The position numbers were made by a program, and so were the translations under genes. Positions 1 through 34,780 of a stretch of 48,970 nt of DNA are shown in pieces. Origin of the DNA: Candidatus Geocrenenecus dongiae (GTDB lineage Archaea; Thermoproteota; Nitrososphaeria_A; Caldarchaeales; Wolframiiraptoraceae); assembly GCA_023267855.1 (NCBI GenBank), contig JALNLN010000013.1:1-48970 (forward strand). Direction: 5' to 3'. Positions within the stretch are counted from its first letter, which is position 1; each line of letters begins with the position of its first letter. The notes under the pieces were generated by a model. It was not told where the DNA came from. It did no database searches and saw nothing but the letters and a program-made list of their open reading frames with translations.

Positions 1-90
1 GATGTTTGACTTATCCCAGACGTAGAACTCGTGGAATTCCTGGGCGATAATGTATTCAAGAACCCCTCGCATAAGTAGTTTATGTTTCAT
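1..90 (-). CDS. Partial ORF at left edge, function unknown
   Basis: An ATG at 88-90 on the minus strand opens a frame that stays open to the window edge (30 codons). It has an aromatic, acidic stretch (EFHEFYVWDKSNI). The gene is cut by the edge, no Shine-Dalgarno is obvious, and it is too short to place in a family. It follows another gene remnant by about 20 bases, so it may itself be debris. Confidence 0.25.
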   Translation of the reverse strand, partial: MKHKLLMRGVLEYIIAQEFHEFYVWDKSNI

Positions 91-108
91 TTTAAGATCC
101 CTGTCTTT

Positions 109-345
109 CTAGATGACGGGTGAGCCCGCCTCTGGATATATGTTATTAAATATATGAGGTCCAATCGAGGCTCCATTCCTGTATTTTGTTGCATAGAACT
201 TGGCGCGTTCCAATACATCTAGCGGGCTATCGAGTATCGGTTCTATCCCGCATCTCCGCTTAGCTATAAAGCCCTCTTAAACGACCCCTTAAAGCCCTCT
301 ATTGTCATCTCCTCGACGCTCGGGACATGTAGAAACCTCTACCTC
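109..345 (-). pseudogene. Decayed gene fragment of unknown family
   Basis: Minus-strand reading gives a plausible protein C-terminus containing PLDVLERAKFYATKYRNGAS and ending NIYPEAGSPVI before a TAG at 109-111. The upstream part continues only after a shift of frame, and a short motif (gagggcttta) occurs twice around the break, which looks like a small duplication that disrupted the gene. I do not recognise the family. This is what fills the roughly 350-base stretch before apbE. Confidence 0.3.
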
Positions 346-357
346 TAGCCGCATTTA

Positions 358-1299
358 TCATGTACACCCTGTGCACTCATAAGCCGCAAACTTACTCGTT
401 CTCAGAATCTTCCTGTCCGACATGATGAGCATAGCCTCTGCATTATCTAATTTTTCCACGAGATCTATGCCCTGTTTTGGATCCATAAGACACAGGCTAG
501 TTGCAAGGGCATCAGCAACTAGTGTCCTCTCGCATATTACAGTAGAACTGATGACTTGCTCAGATGCTAGTGGTCTCTTTGGGTTGACGATGTGGCTCAA
601 AATTCCTTGCGCTATTCTGCGTTCATAGCTCCCACTGGTTGCAACAGCACCGTCGTGAAGCTTTATGATCGTTATATTCTGTTCTTTATGAAACGGGTCT
701 CTTATTCCAATTCTCCAGGGTTCTTTGTCCGTCTTCCCACCAATAGTCCTGATATCTCCACCTGCATTGATTAGTGCGTTCCTAATTCCGCACTTTTTTA
801 AAGTCTCTGCCGCCAAATCTGCCGCATAACCTTTAGCTATAGCATTTAGAACGATCTTCATACCTTTTTTCAAGAACCTTATACGTCTCCCTTCTACCTT
901 CACAGACGAATAATCAACGAGCTCCAATATGCTTCTTAATCCCTCCTCAAATGACGTCCGATCTTTAAGAAAATTCTTATCAATGTATTCTATTAAGGGA
1001 GCCACCGTTATGTCGAAAATACCATCCGTTAACTTGCTTATCTTCTCTGCTTCTTTGATAATCCATATCAATTCCTCGGAAGCATTCTCTAAATAGCCTT
1101 GTCTGTTAAGTCTGCTAACCTCACTCTCTTCATTAAATACGCTCATCATAGCCTCAACTTTCTTGATTTCGTTGAATGCGTTATCCATTACTTCCTCAGA
1201 ATACTCTATATCTCTGGAAACGATCATAATCGTAACAGAGGTTCCCATTAAAATCTTCGACTTTTTTACAAGAAGGTGTTTTTCTTCTGATACCATCAT
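358..1299 (-). CDS. apbE: ApbE, FAD:protein FMN transferase
   Basis: ApbE moves FMN from FAD onto a Thr (or Ser) side chain of FMN-binding domains. Family signatures seen: MGTSVTI near residues 18-24, IAKGYAAD near 154-161, the metal-site region NAGGDIRTIGG near 178-188, SHIVNP near 235-240 and ADALATS near 262-268. The length of 313 residues is normal. I see no signal peptide or lipobox, although many ApbE proteins that act on exported targets have one, so how it reaches its target is unclear. The obvious target is the FMN domain encoded at 3785-5233, which has an intact acceptor motif. The gene lies downstream of a decayed and an intact fumarate-reductase-like gene on the same strand. The family call is secure; the partnership is inferred from the genes lying together. 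Confidence 0.92.
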   Translation of the reverse strand: MMVSEEKHLLVKKSKILMGTSVTIMIVSRDIEYSEEVMDNAFNEIKKVEAMMSVFNEESEVSRLNRQGYLENASEELIWIIKEAEKISKLTDGIFDITVAPLIEYIDKNFLKDRTSFEEGLRSILELVDYSSVKVEGRRIRFLKKGMKIVLNAIAKGYAADLAAETLKKCGIRNALINAGGDIRTIGGKTDKEPWRIGIRDPFHKEQNITIIKLHDGAVATSGSYERRIAQGILSHIVNPKRPLASEQVISSTVICERTLVADALATSLCLMDPKQGIDLVEKLDNAEAMLIMSDRKILRTSKFAAYECTGCT

Positions 1300-1342
1300 A
1301 AAGAATAAAGATTATGAGAGGTTTAAAAATAATATTCTTAAT

Positions 1343-1975
1343 CTAATGGTTCCTTAGTAGCTTCCTTTCCAGTTGTCCTACCGAATACTTAGAGTCTGTT
1401 ACTGCGAAGCTACCCGGTCTACACGCCCCATGAACACCGCTAGTTATTTTTCCAGTAGCATAAAGTTTCGGTATGAGCACACTGCTGTCATCTAGTACTT
1501 GTGCCTTAATATTGATTCCTGTACCGCCCATGGTATGACGTACGGCAGGCCATTGTGGTGCTGCATAAAATGGTGGCTTCTCAATCTTCGCTAATAATCT
1601 TGGCTCTCCAAAGTCCTCATATTTCCCCTCTTCTACGAACCTGTTATATCTTTTAACGGTTTCAGCAAGCCCTGCTGGATCCATGCCTGCCTTTATGGCT
1701 AACTCTTCGATTGTATTGCCTACTATGATTCTGCTCCTCTCTATGAACTCCAGCCTGATCTTTAGTTTTGGCGGGAACTCAACGCCGAGACCTATTAGCC
1801 ATCCAAAAACGTCACGAGACTTTATCGCAACTTTCTTAGCCAGCTCTACATAGTTCAGATACGTCTTAAAGTTAGCATGTCCTTGACAAATAACTCGACA
1901 CCATCCACTTCTTAATTGCATTAAATATTTGTGGCACTTATTTACACTTTTCGAAAAATCGGCATCGGTGTGCAA
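1343..1975 (-). pseudogene. Internally deleted fumarate-reductase-like flavoprotein
   Basis: The C-terminal two thirds aligns by eye with the intact neighbour at 2038-3642: HTMGGTGINIKAQVLDD matches HTMGGLHINSKAQVLDT, and the segments around GLAETVKRYNRFVEEG and YATGKITSGVHG also match. The N-terminal part resembles the neighbour's middle (FGWLIGLGVEF against IDFLVDIGVPF), then jumps about 200 residues. The FAD-binding N-terminus and the catalytic core are therefore missing. The last motif is also ruined: the family's RxGGNALxD is replaced by RPGSFAVTD. The frame is still open (210 codons), but the product could not bind FAD normally. It is most simply a duplicate of the neighbour that lost its middle. 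Confidence 0.75.
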
Positions 1976-2037
1976 TCATGTAACATTATGTAGACGTTTA
2001 AAAACTACAAAAAGTAAAAAATAATAAAGGTTTTTCT

Positions 2038-3642
2038 TCACATAGAAACTTCGCGGACGGCATTTCTACCGGCTATTCTTCCGAAAGCTATTATGTCGAG
2101 TAAGGCGTTTCCGCCGATCCTATTCGTTCCGTGGATGCCGCCAGTAATTTCTCCGGCTGCATAGAGGCCCGGTATGACTTTACCCTCTGTATCTAGTACT
2201 TGTGCCTTGCTGTTTATATGAAGACCGCCCATTGTATGGTGGAGCGAAGGTCTTCCTTTTATGGCATAGAAGGGCGGTGTATCTATTTTCAGCATTGGGT
2301 CACCTTTTCTCATAGACAAATCTCTTCTCTTGAACTCTGGGTCATGTCCTTCGTCAACGTATTTGTTCCAATTGTTTACGGTTTCTACCAAGTTATCTGG
2401 ATTTATTCCTGCTAGCACAGCAAGCTCTCTTATGGTATCGGCCTTAAAGGCCACGCCCCTTTTTAATTGATCAGCGATTATAGTTTCAGGATCCCCAAAT
2501 GCTTTAAAATTCTTTAATTGTTTATCATCTACGATTGCAAAAGCAAAACCTCCAGGTTGTGCTAAGACAGCATCTCTCCTTACGTCCCTCCTTTCCAGCT
2601 CTTCAACAAATCTTTTACCATCAGTGTTTACCATGATCCCGATGCCGAGCTCTGTTGCGGCTGCTATCGTAACTAGACTGCCCGTTTCGTAATCACACAT
2701 AGGCCACAACTGCACATAATCCATGCCCCTTATAGCGGCACCGACATCCATCGCCGCTATTAATACTTCACCAGTAGTTGTTCCCGGAACGTTTGTGGAC
2801 GGGAAACCGACAAACCTCGGAGCATGTCTCCTTATTAGTAACTCACTCTGGCAGAATCCACCGGCGGCTAATATCACAGCCTTCTTAGCCCTGATGTACT
2901 TGATCTTACCATCAGCAGTCTCAGCTTTTACACCAAGAACCCTACCGCTATTAGCTTCTTCTCTGATTATCTTAATAACCTTGTGTTCTAAGAGTACTTT
3001 AATGCCTCTTTTCTCAACTTGTTTCCTTAGCGCAGCATGTAACGCCGCTCCTCCGCCTATTACAGAATGCGTTCTCGGGACACTCTGTCCACCGGACATC
3101 GTTAGTGTGTCAGCAAAGGGTACACCAATATCAACCAAGAAATCAATAACTGATGGCGCATTTTCGACTAGAGTCCTTATAAGCTCTGGGTCACCCATGT
3201 AATCTCCGGATTTAAGTAAATCGTTATACTGCAATTCAAACGAATCCTTTATTCCTTGCTTTTCTTGTAATTTAAGCTTCGAAGACCATGCATTTATAAT
3301 TCCGCCAGAAACAGCAGTGTTACAAAGTCCAAGTTGTGGCATCTTTTCAATTATCAGCACGTTTGCACCTTCGTCATGGGCCGTTATCGCGGCAGCAAGA
3401 CCCGCACCACCGCCACCTACTATCACGACGTCAGCTTCTACATCCCATTTCTCAGGCAACCACGGCTTTACCTCTTCCACCTTAGTCTCAGTCTTAGTAG
3501 TAGTTACCGTCTTTTCTACTTCTTTTATTACCTCCCTCGGAAATGCCTGACTTCCAACAATACCTCCTACAATCAAACCGATAATGCCGGCAGCAATTGT
3601 TCCTGCAACAGTTCTTCTAGATACTTTCTTTTCTGCACTCAC
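2038..3642 (-). CDS. Tat-exported fumarate-reductase-like FAD protein
   Basis: Soluble flavocytochrome-c/fumarate-reductase superfamily (FrdA-like FAD subunit), about 534 residues. I start it at GTG 3642: the frame is open 15 codons further, but this start puts the twin-arginine SRRTVAG at residues 8-14, followed by a hydrophobic helix, a clear Tat signal. The dinucleotide-binding VGGGGAG lies near 75-81. Family catalytic positions appear intact: HTMGG near 469-473, ERRD in the middle, and the closing NRIGGNALLD near 507-516. No heme-binding CxxCH is present, so electrons must come from another protein; the divergent membrane cytochrome/FMN protein is the natural donor. Substrate is unknown; fumarate, urocanate or another activated alkene would fit the fold. 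A TATA-like box 26 bases upstream suggests a leaderless transcript. Confidence 0.85.
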   Translation of the reverse strand: MSAEKKVSRRTVAGTIAAGIIGLIVGGIVGSQAFPREVIKEVEKTVTTTKTETKVEEVKPWLPEKWDVEADVVIVGGGGAGLAAAITAHDEGANVLIIEKMPQLGLCNTAVSGGIINAWSSKLKLQEKQGIKDSFELQYNDLLKSGDYMGDPELIRTLVENAPSVIDFLVDIGVPFADTLTMSGGQSVPRTHSVIGGGAALHAALRKQVEKRGIKVLLEHKVIKIIREEANSGRVLGVKAETADGKIKYIRAKKAVILAAGGFCQSELLIRRHAPRFVGFPSTNVPGTTTGEVLIAAMDVGAAIRGMDYVQLWPMCDYETGSLVTIAAATELGIGIMVNTDGKRFVEELERRDVRRDAVLAQPGGFAFAIVDDKQLKNFKAFGDPETIIADQLKRGVAFKADTIRELAVLAGINPDNLVETVNNWNKYVDEGHDPEFKRRDLSMRKGDPMLKIDTPPFYAIKGRPSLHHTMGGLHINSKAQVLDTEGKVIPGLYAAGEITGGIHGTNRIGGNALLDIIAFGRIAGRNAVREVSM

Positions 3643-3657
3643 ATATACTATATATTT

Positions 3658-3695
3658 GTAACGATTATTTATGTATTTCTGTAACAATTATTTAT
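3658..3695. promoter_or_regulatory. Direct repeat over flavoprotein promoter
   Basis: GTAACGATTATTTAT at 3658-3672 and GTAACAATTATTTAT at 3681-3695 are 15-base direct repeats with one mismatch and a 23-base period. On the minus strand the first copy supplies ATAAATAAT, centred 26 bases before the GTG start at 3642, so it doubles as a probable TATA box. The second copy could be an operator half or a duplicated promoter. Confidence 0.5.
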
Positions 3696-3750
3696 AATGT
3701 CATACAAATATATACAAAAGTCACGTAAGTATATACAAAAAACAAAAAAC

Positions 3751-3760
3751 TAAAATATAA
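3751..3760 (+). promoter_or_regulatory. TATA-like box before the cytochrome b-FMN gene
   Basis: The sequence taaaatataa is centred about 29 bases before the ATG at 3785, leaving almost no room for a 5' leader. This fits an archaeal leaderless promoter facing away from the flavoprotein promoter in the same 142-base gap. Confidence 0.4.
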
Positions 3761-3784
3761 CAAAGTTGTTAGTCTACATCTAGA

Positions 3785-5233
3785 ATGAAAGAGGTAGAAT
3801 ATGTAAAAAGATGGTCAATTCTTGATAGGTTTACGCATTTACTAATATTGCTTGGTGTCGTAATTGGAGTGGTGTCTGGTATTCCGGAACTCCAACTTGA
3901 AATTCTAGGATACAATCTTGGAGATAACTTCCGTTGGATTACCGATGTGATAGGTGGAGAAAGTATCCGCCGTTTACTCCATAGATATGTTGTAACGGTA
4001 CTGATTGGGATTGCAATAGTTATACACACGCTGAGCTTCAGTCTCAGAAGCAAGAAGAGCAATATACTGTTTACTTATAAGGACTTAAAGGACCTTGTCT
4101 TATACTACAAGTTTAGGTTCCTAAAGGCTCCTGAACCTGAGCTCGGATTCCACATGCCTGGTGAAAAGCTACTCTATTGGATCGCCGCTATCTCATTGCC
4201 GATTCTAGGACTAACCGGCATTATGATGTGGACGAACTACTTACCTATTGAATACGAAGTCTTAAGACTTCTACATAGAGTGTTCTTCATCTTGCTTACA
4301 GTTTTTGTAGTAATCCATTTCATATTGAACTTAGTTCTGCGCGACCAGTGGCCTGCATTAAAGTCCATGTTCCTGACGGGCAAAGTGCCGAGTGAATGGG
4401 TGAGAAAACATCATCCAAAAACGTTTGAAGAAGAAAAGGTTGTTTGGATCGGAAGACGGAGAGTTATGAAAACACTTCTTACGGTAATTCCGGCCGTAGC
4501 TCTAGGTTACGTATTAAACGAATTGTTGAAACCACCGAGATATATAATTAGAAATATTTACGTTGAACCTTCAAAGGTTAAGTCAGGCGATCCGTTTACA
4601 GTACACGCCGAGATAGCAAACATAGGTTACAGGGAAGGAACATTTAATGTCCAACTTTTCATCGACGGTAACTTGGTAGACGAAAAGAGCATTACATTGT
4701 TAGATGGTGAGACCAAATTACTATCGTTCCAAGCAAAATTAAAGGAAATTGGCAAGCATGTCATAACTGTAGATAGTGTCTCAACTTCAATTGAGGTAAC
4801 GGAGGCACCTCCACCTATTGCGCCTGAACTCGCAGAAAGATTCAAGAAGTTGGTACCCGAAGCGTATGACTTTGTACCAATTATAAAAGAAGGAAAGATC
4901 GCTTACTATGAAATATATAATGCAATGGGAAACCTAATAGCCTACGGATTTTACACCAGAGCTTATGCTCCCACAGATAGGCTTCAGATAATTGGAATAG
5001 TTGACCTAGATTACAAGATAAAGTCTATAGACATAGATAAGATAGAGCCGGGAACTAGGTTGCATAATGAGATGATAATCGAACCAAGCTTTGAGGAAAG
5101 ATTCATAGGGCTAACTGTGGATGAGGTTGGATTATCTCCTGAGGGAAAAGTGGATGCTGTCAGTGGTGCAACGATCTCTTCAGCTGCAGTAGTTAATGCC
5201 ATTAAGAATGCGCTAAGTAGCATAACGTCTTAA
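3785..5233 (+). CDS. Cytochrome b / CARDB / covalent-FMN fusion protein
   Basis: A 482-residue membrane protein with three recognisable parts. Residues 1-220 resemble the formate-dehydrogenase gamma type cytochrome b: four hydrophobic helices with histidines at 18, 66, 164 and 178 (and 81), fitting two b hemes. Near 224-226 an RRR is followed by a hydrophobic helix, like an internal Tat-type export segment. Residues about 256-340 form a CARDB-like beta domain (YVEPSKVKSGDPFTVHAEIA). The C-terminus is an FMN_bind domain whose DAVSGATISS motif matches the ApbE acceptor consensus, with Thr463 as the predicted FMN attachment site. Inferred role: quinol to heme b to FMN to the exported FAD reductase encoded divergently. 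The cytochrome and FMN domains are usually on separate proteins, so the fusion is uncommon. Assignment of parts is firm; the electron route is inference. Confidence 0.88.
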   Translation: MKEVEYVKRWSILDRFTHLLILLGVVIGVVSGIPELQLEILGYNLGDNFRWITDVIGGESIRRLLHRYVVTVLIGIAIVIHTLSFSLRSKKSNILFTYKDLKDLVLYYKFRFLKAPEPELGFHMPGEKLLYWIAAISLPILGLTGIMMWTNYLPIEYEVLRLLHRVFFILLTVFVVIHFILNLVLRDQWPALKSMFLTGKVPSEWVRKHHPKTFEEEKVVWIGRRRVMKTLLTVIPAVALGYVLNELLKPPRYIIRNIYVEPSKVKSGDPFTVHAEIANIGYREGTFNVQLFIDGNLVDEKSITLLDGETKLLSFQAKLKEIGKHVITVDSVSTSIEVTEAPPPIAPELAERFKKLVPEAYDFVPIIKEGKIAYYEIYNAMGNLIAYGFYTRAYAPTDRLQIIGIVDLDYKIKSIDIDKIEPGTRLHNEMIIEPSFEERFIGLTVDEVGLSPEGKVDAVSGATISSAAVVNAIKNALSSITS

Positions 5234-5418
5234 TGTTAAGAAGCGACTAAAAATCTGATATTTTTAACGCTACAAAGACCGTGAAAGTTATACTAATAGT
5301 GTAGAATTATTATACAACGATATCTTTCAATTCTATTCTCTTTTTAAATTCTGAACCTAATTCTCCGATTTTTCCGGGAATTGGGTATCCTGAGAATTTT
5401 CGAGACATGCGGTATCAC

Positions 5419-30155: not shown

Positions 30156-33077
30156 CTATATTATTTTCCACTCTCTTCTATAGTATTCTGCTATAATCCC
30201 TCGCGTCTCTTCTGGGGTTGCTTTTCTCACTTTTACTATCATGTCTGCGAAGACTGGTTGACCCATGATAGGCGACATGATGTAGTCTAATAATTCTGAA
30301 TGATTTGGCGTATAAGTTCTATGGGCATATGTTCCTCCAAGTCCTGGAGAGAATCTTCCTCCAGTTGCAAACCCCATCCTTATTACTCCAGGTCTAACAG
30401 TCTCGCATACGTAGGCTTTTGATAAGACTTTTCTTCCGAGCGGGTTTTCTATGATTATTAGGTCTCCCATCTTTATTCCTAATCTCTCTGCATCGGCAGA
30501 ATTTATCTGGACTGTTCCTATACACCACAGGTTTTTTGGTATAGTTTTCTCTACGTGGATTATCTCCATTCCTCCTGGGGATGTTTCAGCCATCTTTAGT
30601 GAGAAGCTTTCATTCATCGGCATCCATAATCCTTCAGCGGGTGTTTGTGCCAACCACTCACACATATGGGTCCCGCTCATCGCATGATGTACCCTCGCAG
30701 AGATCAATTGGAATGGATATTCATCTCTATACTTAACGTACTCTGGATTCGTATAGTAGTTCCAAACAGTCTCAAACCAGTAGAATGAGGTAGGCAATTC
30801 TTTCCATCCTAGTTTTCTCCAACTTGGTGGGACTACTCCGCTTTCTATTACAAGCTTGTTTATCCCTTCATACGTATAGAAGTGTAGCTCGAGCTTCTTC
30901 GTTTTCGTCTTAATAATTCCGCCCGGCTTCCAGTCTTGCTTCTCTTCATCCCATTCTCTGTACCTATACCAGCTCATAGGCCAGAATGCTCCGCCATAAT
31001 GTTTTCTCAGATACTCAACTGTTACATACTCGCCTGTTACAGTCTTCTTTTCATCGTCTATCTTTACTCGTCCTTCTTCGAGTGATTCAGGTGTACCGAT
31101 AAGGGTGTATCCCTCCGGTAGGTTAGGATAGGGTAGAGGTCTACCAACGTTAGGTCTGCCTGGAGCGACTCGGAGCATCTCATTTACGAAGTCTTCTTCT
31201 GTCTTATATTTCTCCCAAAATTCTTCTGGCATTATATCGCTCTTTCCAAATTCTTTCATTTCATATTCGTAGATCTTCTTAGCGAGCATGTTCATAATGT
31301 CGGTAGGTTTTTTACTCTCGAATAGTGGTTCTATTACTGCGTCTCGTAGGAATATTATCGGATGGGTCGGATATATGTCTGAGAGGCTCATCCTCTCCAG
31401 GTAGCTTGCTTCAGGCAGAATGTAGTCTGCATATAACCCGGATTCTAGTAGGATTGTATCAATGTAAACGTATAGTTCAAGTTTGTATTCTCCATCGGGT
31501 TTCTTTGCCGTGAATGCCTCAATAAACTTGTATACCGGTCCAGCAGTTATCAACGTATTACCAGTTCTCAGAATATATGCAGCCAGTGGGTACTTGTGCC
31601 CTTTGAACGGTCCATACTTTAACTCTATTCCCTCCATGATCATTCTCGGCAGGTCTCCTACTACATCATCCCATGCAGCGGGCCAGTCCCCATATCTAGC
31701 ATAGTGGAGTTTCTCTTGTTCTGCCTCCACCTCGACACCGTTTATAATCCTCTTTACTTTTCTTGTGTTGAACCATCTTCCAGTCGCTGTCCCTCCTTTA
31801 CTCGACTTAACGATTTCTGTATCTATTACTCCTCCACGTGCCTCGAAGTTCCCCGTGATTATGTTTAATACGCATCCGAGAATTGATGCTACATATCCAT
31901 TGTAGTGATGACCTGGCGATTGCATACCCCATATGAGTGCGGCCGGCTTAGTTATACCGAAAACATGTGCTAGGTACTCAATCTTCTCTTTTGGAAGACC
32001 TGTTCTCGCTTCAGCCCACTCCAAGGTAAAATACTTAAAACCATTTACAGGATCTACTTTATCCCACCAACTCTTGAAGTTCTCTAAGAATTCCTCCCAT
32101 CCTTCAACATATTTTAGTACACTATAATCGATGTAATTTCTTGTAGGATCGGCTGGATTATTATGTTCAAGGATGTATCTGAGCATAGCAGCAAACAAAT
32201 CGCCATCCGTCCCTGGTCTAATCGGGAACCATTCATCGGCTAGTGATGCCGTATTGCTGAAGCCTGGATCTACAACGAATACTTTGCATCCATTTTCTTT
32301 CTTTGCTCTAACGGTTCCAACAGTCTCCCAAACGATTCTAGTAGCTGTGAATGGGTTCCAGCCAACGTATATTATCAGTTTCGCATCGTGTTTATCATAC
32401 CATTTAAGACTGCCGTCAGGCATTCTTATAGGTACAGGTCGCAGAATGTCTGGCTCCCATCTCTTTCCATTTACTATAAGCTTCGGCCCGTGTCTCCTGG
32501 GAGTATCACATATCGCTCCATGCTCTACAGCGTTTGGTGAACCGAAGGCAAAAGTCAACCTCCAGTATTGGTCTCTATCTGTTACATCTCCAGTATCGGT
32601 TAATAGTGCCTCTGGACCATATTTCTTCTTGATCTCAACGAGTTTCCGAGCTATCTCATCTATCGCCTGCTCCCAAGAGATCCTAACGAATTTTCCTTCA
32701 CCACGTTCACCCACCCTCTTCAATGGATACTTTATTCTATATGGACTATAAACTAGCTGTAATCCAGCTATGGCTTTAGCGCAGGCTGCGCCTCTACTAT
32801 TGTAGGTTAAATGAGGGTTACCGTAGACTCTTACCACTCTACCATCTTTGACCCACACTTCAAGAGCGCACTCGGCTGCACACATTACACATGCCGTATA
32901 TTTCACTTGTACATCTCTCTTCTTTATCCTCTGCTTGACCGCTCTAAGGTTCTCAGCAGGTATTTGAACTAGATGCATTTTTTCATAGATTGCTGGTCCT
33001 AGGGTTGCACCAGCAATTACGGCCAGAGATGCCAGAGATCCTAACTCTATAAACTTTCTTCTACTTAACTTACTCAT
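30156..33077 (-). CDS. Tat-exported molybdopterin oxidoreductase catalytic subunit
   Basis: DMSO-reductase-superfamily catalytic (A) subunit, 973 residues. Tat signal LSRRKFIELGSLA at 4-16. An [4Fe-4S] cluster is held by Cys63, 66, 70 and 99 (CVMCAAEC, then a later C). The probable metal ligand is Cys190 in HGAICDTPRRHG. FVRISWEQAIDEIARKL and PGTDGDLFAAMLR are superfamily hallmarks. With B and NrfD-type C subunits it belongs with the polysulfide, thiosulfate, tetrathionate and arsenate reductases. The length exceeds Psr/Phs (about 750) and is nearer TtrA or ArrA. The substrate cannot be chosen from sequence alone. Mo and W are both possible. Confidence 0.92.
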   Translation of the reverse strand: MSKLSRRKFIELGSLASLAVIAGATLGPAIYEKMHLVQIPAENLRAVKQRIKKRDVQVKYTACVMCAAECALEVWVKDGRVVRVYGNPHLTYNSRGAACAKAIAGLQLVYSPYRIKYPLKRVGERGEGKFVRISWEQAIDEIARKLVEIKKKYGPEALLTDTGDVTDRDQYWRLTFAFGSPNAVEHGAICDTPRRHGPKLIVNGKRWEPDILRPVPIRMPDGSLKWYDKHDAKLIIYVGWNPFTATRIVWETVGTVRAKKENGCKVFVVDPGFSNTASLADEWFPIRPGTDGDLFAAMLRYILEHNNPADPTRNYIDYSVLKYVEGWEEFLENFKSWWDKVDPVNGFKYFTLEWAEARTGLPKEKIEYLAHVFGITKPAALIWGMQSPGHHYNGYVASILGCVLNIITGNFEARGGVIDTEIVKSSKGGTATGRWFNTRKVKRIINGVEVEAEQEKLHYARYGDWPAAWDDVVGDLPRMIMEGIELKYGPFKGHKYPLAAYILRTGNTLITAGPVYKFIEAFTAKKPDGEYKLELYVYIDTILLESGLYADYILPEASYLERMSLSDIYPTHPIIFLRDAVIEPLFESKKPTDIMNMLAKKIYEYEMKEFGKSDIMPEEFWEKYKTEEDFVNEMLRVAPGRPNVGRPLPYPNLPEGYTLIGTPESLEEGRVKIDDEKKTVTGEYVTVEYLRKHYGGAFWPMSWYRYREWDEEKQDWKPGGIIKTKTKKLELHFYTYEGINKLVIESGVVPPSWRKLGWKELPTSFYWFETVWNYYTNPEYVKYRDEYPFQLISARVHHAMSGTHMCEWLAQTPAEGLWMPMNESFSLKMAETSPGGMEIIHVEKTIPKNLWCIGTVQINSADAERLGIKMGDLIIIENPLGRKVLSKAYVCETVRPGVIRMGFATGGRFSPGLGGTYAHRTYTPNHSELLDYIMSPIMGQPVFADMIVKVRKATPEETRGIIAEYYRREWKII

Positions 33078-33083
33078 GTACCC

Positions 33084-34100
33084 TCACCTCTTATACTTAA
33101 ACTCTGGGATGGGGAAGATAGTTAAGCCAAGCACATACAAGAATAAAGATAATGATATTACTCCAACGGTGGCTAAAATCTCTGTCTGTGTTGGCATAAA
33201 ACTGAGGAGCGAGTAAAGTTGTGGCGAGACTTCTACAATCTGCTGTCCGCCGATTATAAGATTCCACTTATAAGAGTAGACTCCAGCTAGAATTAGAATA
33301 GATGTAGCTATCGACCCGATTGTCGAGGTCCTCACCTTTTCTGTCACCAACATGAAGATCGGGAGTAATCCTCCTAGAATGTATTGCACGCCTATGAAGC
33401 TTAGTGCTAAGTAGCCGAATAACAAGATTGAAAGCTTAGTCCATATTAATGTTTCCGCATATGCAGTTATTGAAAGCTCGATCAGTGTAAAGACGAGATA
33501 TATTACTAGAAAGTAGAGAGTAAGCTTCCCTAAAGAATTCAGAGTATCTTTTCGTAATCCATCTCTTCCCAAAGTTATGATTGCTAGTAGAGTTACTAGA
33601 GCTGCTCCAGCCGTTATCCCTGAAAGTATGGCTGTTATGGGGGTTATGGTGCTACTCCAGACTTCTCTAGCTTTCATGCCACCAATTATAAATCCGAAGT
33701 ATCCGCCGAATATTAATGATATCACTAACCCTATCGCCGAGATTCCAGTGGATGCTCTCTGGAACCATACCGCTTCCCTATATCTACTATGTACGATTAT
33801 TTGAGTAGTTAATAGAATTACAAAGATCATCCAAATGTATCCGAATAAGGCCATAACTGAACTCGGCATTGGATAGAGGTAGATATTGGGAGCTCTTAAT
33901 GGAGAGCCGAGCTCTAGGACCAATGGTATAGGCGAAGCTAGCAGGAACCCCCATGCAGTCACCATTGAGAAAGTCGAGATACCTTCAAGATTTCTCACCT
34001 TGAAGAGTATTGGAGCAATTGATATAATATATGAGCCTAGCACTAAGCCTGTGATGAAAGAGTAGAGTACTATCATCGGTCCCCAGATTATATTTGTCAT
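33084..34100 (-). CDS. NrfD/PsrC-type membrane subunit
   Basis: A 338-residue protein with nine or ten hydrophobic helices and no heme-binding pattern, as expected for NrfD-family quinol-binding anchors. VTAWGFLLASPIPLVLELGS near 47-66 and PNIYLYPMPSSVMALFGYIW match the conserved second and third helices. It would exchange electrons between quinones and the FeS subunit. The start overlaps the stop of the FeS subunit gene by four bases, and the stop is six bases from the catalytic subunit gene. Confidence 0.9.
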   Translation of the reverse strand: MTNIIWGPMIVLYSFITGLVLGSYIISIAPILFKVRNLEGISTFSMVTAWGFLLASPIPLVLELGSPLRAPNIYLYPMPSSVMALFGYIWMIFVILLTTQIIVHSRYREAVWFQRASTGISAIGLVISLIFGGYFGFIIGGMKAREVWSSTITPITAILSGITAGAALVTLLAIITLGRDGLRKDTLNSLGKLTLYFLVIYLVFTLIELSITAYAETLIWTKLSILLFGYLALSFIGVQYILGGLLPIFMLVTEKVRTSTIGSIATSILILAGVYSYKWNLIIGGQQIVEVSPQLYSLLSFMPTQTEILATVGVISLSLFLYVLGLTIFPIPEFKYKR

Positions 34101-34780
34101 ATTTCTTTCACCACCCCAATCTTCGGATTTGTAACGATAACAGGAGCACCAGCTTTTACAGCCTCTTCATACCCTATGTAGTAGACTGACGGACTGTTTC
34201 CGGTTTCAGGTTTTATGACGCTTACAGACTTTCCTGCAAGTGTCTTTGAGACAATGCTTTCAGGATGGTTTATGTCTCCAAAGATTCTAGCACCACCCAT
34301 ACAGTTTATAACGCATGAAGGTACTTCACCCTCTTCTATCTTGTGAAGACAATAGTCGCATTTATCAGCTGTACCCGTATATGGGTTCCTAAATCTAGCA
34401 TCGTATGGACATGCTTGTATACAGTAACCACATCCTATACATCTATCGTAATCAATTACCACTATTCCATCATCCCTCTTATACGTTGCTCCAACAGGGC
34501 AGACAGGAACACATGATGGCGTATCACAATGGTTACATAGTCTAGGTAAGAAAACTCTTCTCACGTATGGATACTTCCCTCGCTCTATTACTTCTACCCA
34601 AGTCCTAAAGAATTCGTATGGGGTACCGTTTTCCATCTTACATGATACTTGGCATGCATAGCATCCTACACATTTATTCAAATCGATAACCATGACCCAT
34701 TTAGGTTTCATAGACTTTTTGTCAATGTATCTACCGACTATATGGGGTAATTCTTCTTGAAGTTTTAAATACTCAGACAT
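34097..34780 (-). CDS. Four-cluster ferredoxin (B) subunit of the molybdoenzyme
   Basis: A 227-residue PsrB/DmsB-like subunit carrying four [4Fe-4S] clusters: CVGCYACQVSC, CNHCDTPSCVPVCP, CIGCGYCIQACP and CDYC...CVINC. It links the catalytic subunit to the membrane subunit, and it has no signal of its own, as usual for proteins exported by hitch-hiking with the Tat-bearing A subunit. It is the first gene of the BCA-TorD-NapH operon; a short leader with GTGAT precedes the ATG. Confidence 0.94.
   Translation of the reverse strand: MSEYLKLQEELPHIVGRYIDKKSMKPKWVMVIDLNKCVGCYACQVSCKMENGTPYEFFRTWVEVIERGKYPYVRRVFLPRLCNHCDTPSCVPVCPVGATYKRDDGIVVIDYDRCIGCGYCIQACPYDARFRNPYTGTADKCDYCLHKIEEGEVPSCVINCMGGARIFGDINHPESIVSKTLAGKSVSVIKPETGNSPSVYYIGYEEAVKAGAPVIVTNPKIGVVKEI

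Follow-up and report, generated by a model that had tools for sequence, protein, structure and literature searches.

A cytochrome b fused to CARDB and FMN_bind domains in Wolframiiraptoraceae, with predicted export of its flavin arm

The fusion gene and its neighbors

The window, by which we mean the whole stretch of 48,970 nucleotides analyzed here, comes from the heat-loving archaeon Candidatus Geocrenenecus dongiae. Positions 3785-5233 of its forward strand form a single uninterrupted ORF of 482 amino acids. Upstream, on the opposite strand, lie a gene for a flavoprotein with a Tat signal and a gene for an ApbE FAD:protein FMN transferase (Table 1).

Table 1. Features of the fusion gene and its neighbors, in positions of the window
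Feature	Positions	Strand	Details
ApbE FAD:protein FMN transferase without signal peptide	358..1299	-	PF02424, 3.4e-74; domain from residue 18
FAD flavoprotein with Tat signal, flavocytochrome c/UrdA-like, divergent from the fusion gene	2038..3642	-	VSRRTVAG; PF00890, 5.4e-81; TIGR01813, 3.7e-124
FdnI/Ni_hydr_CYTB-type cytochrome b	3785..4435	+	residues 1-217; four TM helices, cytoplasmic HHP tail
RRRVMK, internal twin-arginine-like motif	4454..4471	+	residues 224-229
TM5	4472..4528	+	residues 230-248; low hydrophobicity, Lys/Arg next
CARDB Ig-like spacer	4544..4774	+	residues 254-330; PF07705, 5.6e-7, above gathering cut-off
EAPPPI proline hinge	4802..4819	+	residues 340-345; invariant in four orthologues
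FMN_bind region	4820..5230	+	residues 346-482
DAVSGAT	5153..5173	+	residues 457-463; predicted FMN-Thr bond at T463 (5171-5173)

The PF01292, PF07705 and PF04205 matches of the fusion protein each exceed the Pfam gathering cut-off. Ni_hydr_CYTB (PF01292) covers residues 9-196 (8e-15, 55.5 bits against a cut-off of 30.1) and FMN_bind (PF04205) covers residues 404-478 (6.8e-9, 36.7 bits against 22). In the NCBIfam search, the best match was a partial one to formate dehydrogenase gamma (residues 7-218, 3.4e-19), below that model's own cut-off; the C-terminal part likewise gave a partial match to methanogen RnfG, NF041840 (residues 351-481, 3.1e-20), below the cut-off of its model. With a profile built from four orthologues, FdnI (1kqf_C) was matched over residues 1-218 and the cell-surface protein domain 2l0d was aligned to residues 261-329. 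The Pfam search of the fusion protein returned no match to PF01794, the MsrQ-like membrane cytochrome, and none of the Fer4 type that marks the NapH-like FeS membrane proteins of PF12801. The Pfam, 1kqf_C and 2l0d matches bear out the preliminary description of the protein as a four-helix FdnI-like cytochrome b continued by an RRR-preceded helix, a CARDB domain and an FMN_bind domain with intact DAVSGAT.

The residues expected to carry the cofactors are conserved. The heme ligands H18, H66, H164 and H178 are invariant across the fusion orthologues, FdnI and five relatives from molybdopterin-oxidoreductase operons. R224, R225, R226 and K229 are the same in all four orthologues, as are S460, G461, A462 and T463, which complete the D-x-x-SGAT motif of an ApbE substrate. 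A full-length structure model computed from four sequences (mean pLDDT 52.6) predicts a helix at residues 224-248 with low confidence and gives no usable heme-FMN geometry; a fold search with it returned nothing further. Prediction of the arm alone recovered the CARDB fold confidently (pLDDT 80-90), the flavinylation loop being uncertain in the same model, and the fold search with this model gave Ig-like matches for CARDB only, among them the Foldseek match to the PF1109 CARDB structure 3idu.

The ApbE of the window, which was the sole one detected in the genome, can be aligned with FMN transferases of solved structure. It shows no export signal, as its catalytic domain begins directly, and the ApbE proteins of the relatives likewise begin straight at the domain. 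The start of the neighboring flavoprotein was chosen from a 534-residue orthologue in Terraquivivens tengchongensis (locus L031). This flavoprotein aligns to the UrdA structure 6t85 (5.5e-87) and retains the catalytic Arg (ERRD) and the HHTMGG and GTNRIGGN (GTNRxGGN) motifs of UrdA and FccA. At the substrate-site position that we take to be Tyr373 in UrdA and His365 in FccA, it carries a Trp. The Trp rules out urocanate reductase as its exact identity, and since the catalytic Arg and the motifs are kept while this position is changed, the protein is probably, judging from its residues, a reductase whose substrate is some unsaturated acid, neither urocanate nor fumarate. The Pfam search found neither a heme nor an FMN_bind domain in it; it therefore needs an outside electron donor.

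At all four loci that carry the fusion, the fusion gene is divergent from a gene of the FAD_binding_2 family with a Tat signal, and ApbE is in the same cluster. None of the four lies in an FeS/Mo oxidoreductase operon. The flavocytochrome c/UrdA-like protein is shared by the window and T. tengchongensis; the remaining loci (L032 and L033) carry two other FAD proteins, about 25-30% identical to it. The window flavoprotein is a likely redox partner of the fusion. It should be mentioned that positions 1309-2014 of the window form an extra stretch without counterpart in T. tengchongensis, and that a truncated C-terminal FAD_binding_2 fragment (1343-1975, reverse strand), 45-48% identical to the intact flavoprotein, is likely a gene remnant. 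In T. tengchongensis, a gene for a 601-residue PEPCK_ATP-like protein adjoins the ApbE and Tat-FAD genes (L031:3400-5205), and parts of it also match the start of the window.

Occurrence and origin of the fusion

Full-length orthologues are found in T. tengchongensis (94% identity), Aigarchaeota SKYB24 (60%) and Geocrenenecus huangii (56%). Together with the window they make four fusion-bearing genomes, all Wolframiiraptoraceae (Caldarchaeales). A scan of genome contigs with two peptide patterns, whose reach is close relatives, found the full fusion beyond the window only in these three, and plasmid records gave CARDB matches only, without the fusion. Because the three other assemblies carry intact copies, a frameshift or a chimera is ruled out as the source of the fusion. 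The dN/dS ratio of the closest pair is ~0.16 over the whole gene and is low in every segment; purifying selection thus acts on every segment of the fusion gene. Of 398 genomes from the phylum, five contain FMN_bind; all belong to one family, four having it fused and one (genome G008) unfused. Among 61 relatives, ApbE is present in those five genomes and in one more, G013. The contig of G013 starts inside the flavoprotein gene, so that the absence of the fusion there may be an assembly effect.

Positions 1-5223 of the window are ~90% identical in DNA to T. tengchongensis over most of the stretch, and this identity ends sharply at 5223, in the last codons of the fusion gene. The two genomes are much further apart in housekeeping genes, with CTP synthase 50% identical in amino acids, and the GC content of the cluster is 41% against 37% elsewhere. 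The flavinylation cassette has likely been transferred horizontally in recent times; alternatively, the contig may be chimeric, joined at ~5.2 kb. In either case, the fusion gene is intact elsewhere. The same abrupt boundary could mean that the fusion of the window is an anomaly of assembly or horizontal transfer without an established role in the lineage, a view that we consider very improbable given the intact fusion in three other independent genomes and its purifying selection. Just beyond the boundary, a 53-bp non-coding stretch (window 5331-5382, L031:14451-14503) is 87% identical at unrelated positions and is possibly a small mobile or RNA element.

Five unfused relatives of the cytochrome in the phylum (L059-L063) are the cytochrome subunits of molybdopterin-oxidoreductase operons. 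They stop within ~25 residues past HHP, near the point where the fusion runs on into RRR. The unfused FMN_bind protein of G008 has 244 amino acids, an N-terminal SRRNFLK Tat signal and a Thr-rich linker, and is 48% identical to the fusion over the FMN part; it has no CARDB. The preliminary description had regarded the RRR segment as the former Tat signal of a flavoprotein captured by gene fusion. The end points of the unfused cytochromes and the existence of a separate FMN_bind protein with a Tat signal agree with a gene fusion involving an FdnI-like cytochrome b. The descent of RRR-TM5 from that Tat signal fared less well, since CARDB is missing from the G008 protein and the signal regions were not seen to align. 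As for the order of events, either fusion or fission may have come about. It is noted that the G008 gene lies in an operon (L058:7208-10561) with CCG, two 4Fe-4S (Fer4) proteins and a signal-less ApbE, adjoined by an aldehyde ferredoxin oxidoreductase; this is another undescribed flavinylation set.

Topology, export and electron transfer

In formate dehydrogenase-N, the N- and C-termini of FdnI are both cytoplasmic. Because the FdnI tail is cytoplasmic and one further helix, TM5, follows it in the fusion, the CARDB and FMN_bind domains are placed outside. The preliminary description could not have stood with an FMN domain on the cytoplasmic side; the side predicted in this way is the outer one, a topology that we infer by analogy with FdnI.

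The segment that would carry the arm across the membrane was compared with a background of 400 kb of genome G003 together with the window, which holds 388 predicted internal TM segments in 407 proteins. The full xRRxPhiPhiK pattern occurs only before TM5 of the fusion and of its orthologue, and the shorter RRxPhiPhi in four other internal helices. On crude hydropathy scales, TM5 is the least hydrophobic of the five peaks in all four orthologues and has two to three Lys/Arg within the next 15 residues. In dual Sec/Tat proteins, a weak last TM helix and following positive charges release the protein from Sec (PMC5449189). The fusion has the layout of such proteins, an even number of helices (TM1-4) followed by RRRxxK, TM5 and the FMN domain, and, as far as crude scales tell, also the low hydrophobicity of the last helix and the positive charges after it. 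A TatC gene is present. We add that an RRR before a helix equally fits the positive-inside rule, and that the four orthologues are not independent observations.

Known extracytosolic flavinylation uses an exported ApbE, and a cytosolic ApbE serves a soluble fumarate reductase (PMC12052999). Considering that the ApbE here is signal-less, loading of FMN in the cytosol followed by Tat export of the folded domain would be the simplest reconciliation, with Tat dependence as its prediction. It also fits the pairing of a signal-less ApbE with the classical SRRNFLK signal of the G008 protein. The wider proposal, that these proteins form a new archaeal dual Sec/Tat family whose flavin domain acquires its covalent cofactor from a signal-less ApbE while still in the cytosol, ahead of Tat export and opposite to the exported-ApbE route, is one that we put forward tentatively, as falling a little short of probable.

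Taken together, the domains and neighbors point, with slightly better than even confidence on our part, to a membrane electron-transfer module with a tethered flavin arm that is loaded in the cytosol, exported by Tat and links hemes to exported FAD enzymes. Such a module would apparently connect the membrane to enzymes outside the cell. Residues 1-217 would form an FdnI-type cytochrome b with two hemes b, its two termini lying on the cytoplasmic side. The FMN_bind domain would fold in the cytosol and receive FMN on T463 from the nearby ApbE; the internal RRRxxK-TM5 segment would then be passed from Sec to Tat, which would move the folded CARDB-FMN arm outside. There, FMN carried on the CARDB spacer and the proline hinge could trade electrons between the outer heme and FAD enzymes that are exported on their own; the partner in the window would presumably be the UrdA/FccA-like reductase of an unsaturated acid, which has no heme or FMN donor domain of its own. 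The path from heme to FMN on the CARDB arm to the exported FAD enzyme is likely. The CARDB spacer would hold FMN far from the heme unless the arm swings. The sequences and searches show the domains, the conserved ligands and motifs, the rarity of the fusion, its co-occurrence with ApbE and its conserved neighborhood; from these we infer the flavinylation, the Tat route, the partnership and the direction of the electrons.

The same protein with the same topology could also be made with Sec inserting TM5 by itself, the RRR acting as a topology signal only and the FMN domain either crossing the membrane unfolded or receiving its flavin outside in some other way. The positive-inside rule predicts positive charges ahead of a helix, and RRxPhiPhi does recur in other internal helices of the background. 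We nevertheless hold this to be rather unlikely, considering that the genome yielded a single ApbE, which lacks a signal peptide, that the full motif is unique in the background to the fusion and its orthologue, that the unfused G008 protein uses a Tat signal, and that TM5 is the weakest helix.

The module with a Tat-exported arm leaves two directions for the electrons. They could run inward from exported FAD enzymes that are dehydrogenases, through FMN and the hemes to a carrier near the cytoplasm, with energy conserved as in formate dehydrogenase-N. FdnI-type cytochromes normally run inward, the closest relatives of the cytochrome part belong to Mo-oxidoreductases, and 3-ketosteroid dehydrogenases are also members of the FAD_binding_2 family. 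The window flavoprotein, however, is nearest to urocanate and fumarate reductases with their catalytic Arg kept, and the FMN-linked members described in PMC8238504 are reductases, and we judge inward flow to be improbable, about as much so as insertion by Sec alone. The class of the flavoprotein thus favors outward flow, whereas the FdnI heritage favors inward flow. Outward flow would cost membrane potential if the carrier site is cytoplasmic, as in FdnI. Searches bearing on the membrane electron carrier turned up no member of the MqnA/D family, nor any MenD match above cut-off. Asn110, which we take to be the quinone-site residue of FdnI, is not conserved in the fusion.

Relation to known systems

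FdnI, the gamma subunit of formate dehydrogenase-N, shares with the fusion the four helices, the four heme His and the GKVxxxWxxxHHP cytoplasmic tail. It has neither a fifth helix nor a soluble domain, and its partner is an FeS/Mo enzyme, not FMN. Fusions of MsrQ-like cytochromes and NapH-like proteins to FMN_bind have already been described (PMC8238504, PMC11334425). The MsrQ-like fusion is similarly a heme b membrane protein with FMN_bind and tied to ApbE; it differs in belonging to PF01794, with six helices and mainly in Actinobacteria, whereas the present protein is archaeal, belongs to PF01292 and has an internal RR motif and CARDB. NapH-like NosR and PceC are also membrane proteins in which an exported FMN_bind domain feeds an exported reductase. 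Unlike the fusion, they have the FMN domain N-terminal, FeS clusters in the membrane part and an exported ApbE partner. A parallel in layout is Sco3746, a dual Sec/Tat protein with heme-b-type TM1-4, twin arginines before a weak TM5 and an outer cofactor domain (PMC5449189). Its cofactor is MoCo and its Tat dependence is experimental; the paper reports no member with a flavin. The periplasmic reductases UrdA and FccA share their fold and catalytic Arg with the window flavoprotein, but UrdA has an FMN_bind domain and FccA has hemes within the same protein, whereas here the donor would be a separate membrane protein.

The passages of PMC8238504 and PMC11334425 consulted do not mention a protein that joins PF01292 to a twin-arginine helix in its interior, a CARDB domain and FMN_bind at the C-terminus, and the literature searched yielded no paper on FMN_bind with CARDB. 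The earlier impression that the domain order had no described precedent needs qualification. In the genomes and plasmid records scanned, the full architecture was found only in the four genomes, but the general concept, FMN_bind attached to a membrane cytochrome, has been published for the MsrQ-like proteins (PMC11334425). Bacteria have similar fusions, but the literature searched gives no account of this domain combination or of the likely two-step membrane insertion.

With the fusion, extracytosolic flavinylation would take in another type of membrane cytochrome and an archaeal lineage about which little is known. The protein provides a small, experimentally accessible example of a polytopic protein for which two translocases would be required, and the pairing of a cytosolic-looking ApbE with exported substrates makes the site of flavinylation directly testable. 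If true, the scheme would provide a cytosolic-loading route for extracellular flavinylated proteins. It also suggests a way in which the Wolframiiraptoraceae, which are fermentative and tungsten-dependent, might dispose of electrons on organic compounds outside the cell. Elsewhere in the window, positions 30156-34780 encode a molybdopterin oxidoreductase with a Tat signal together with ferredoxin-like and NrfD subunits.
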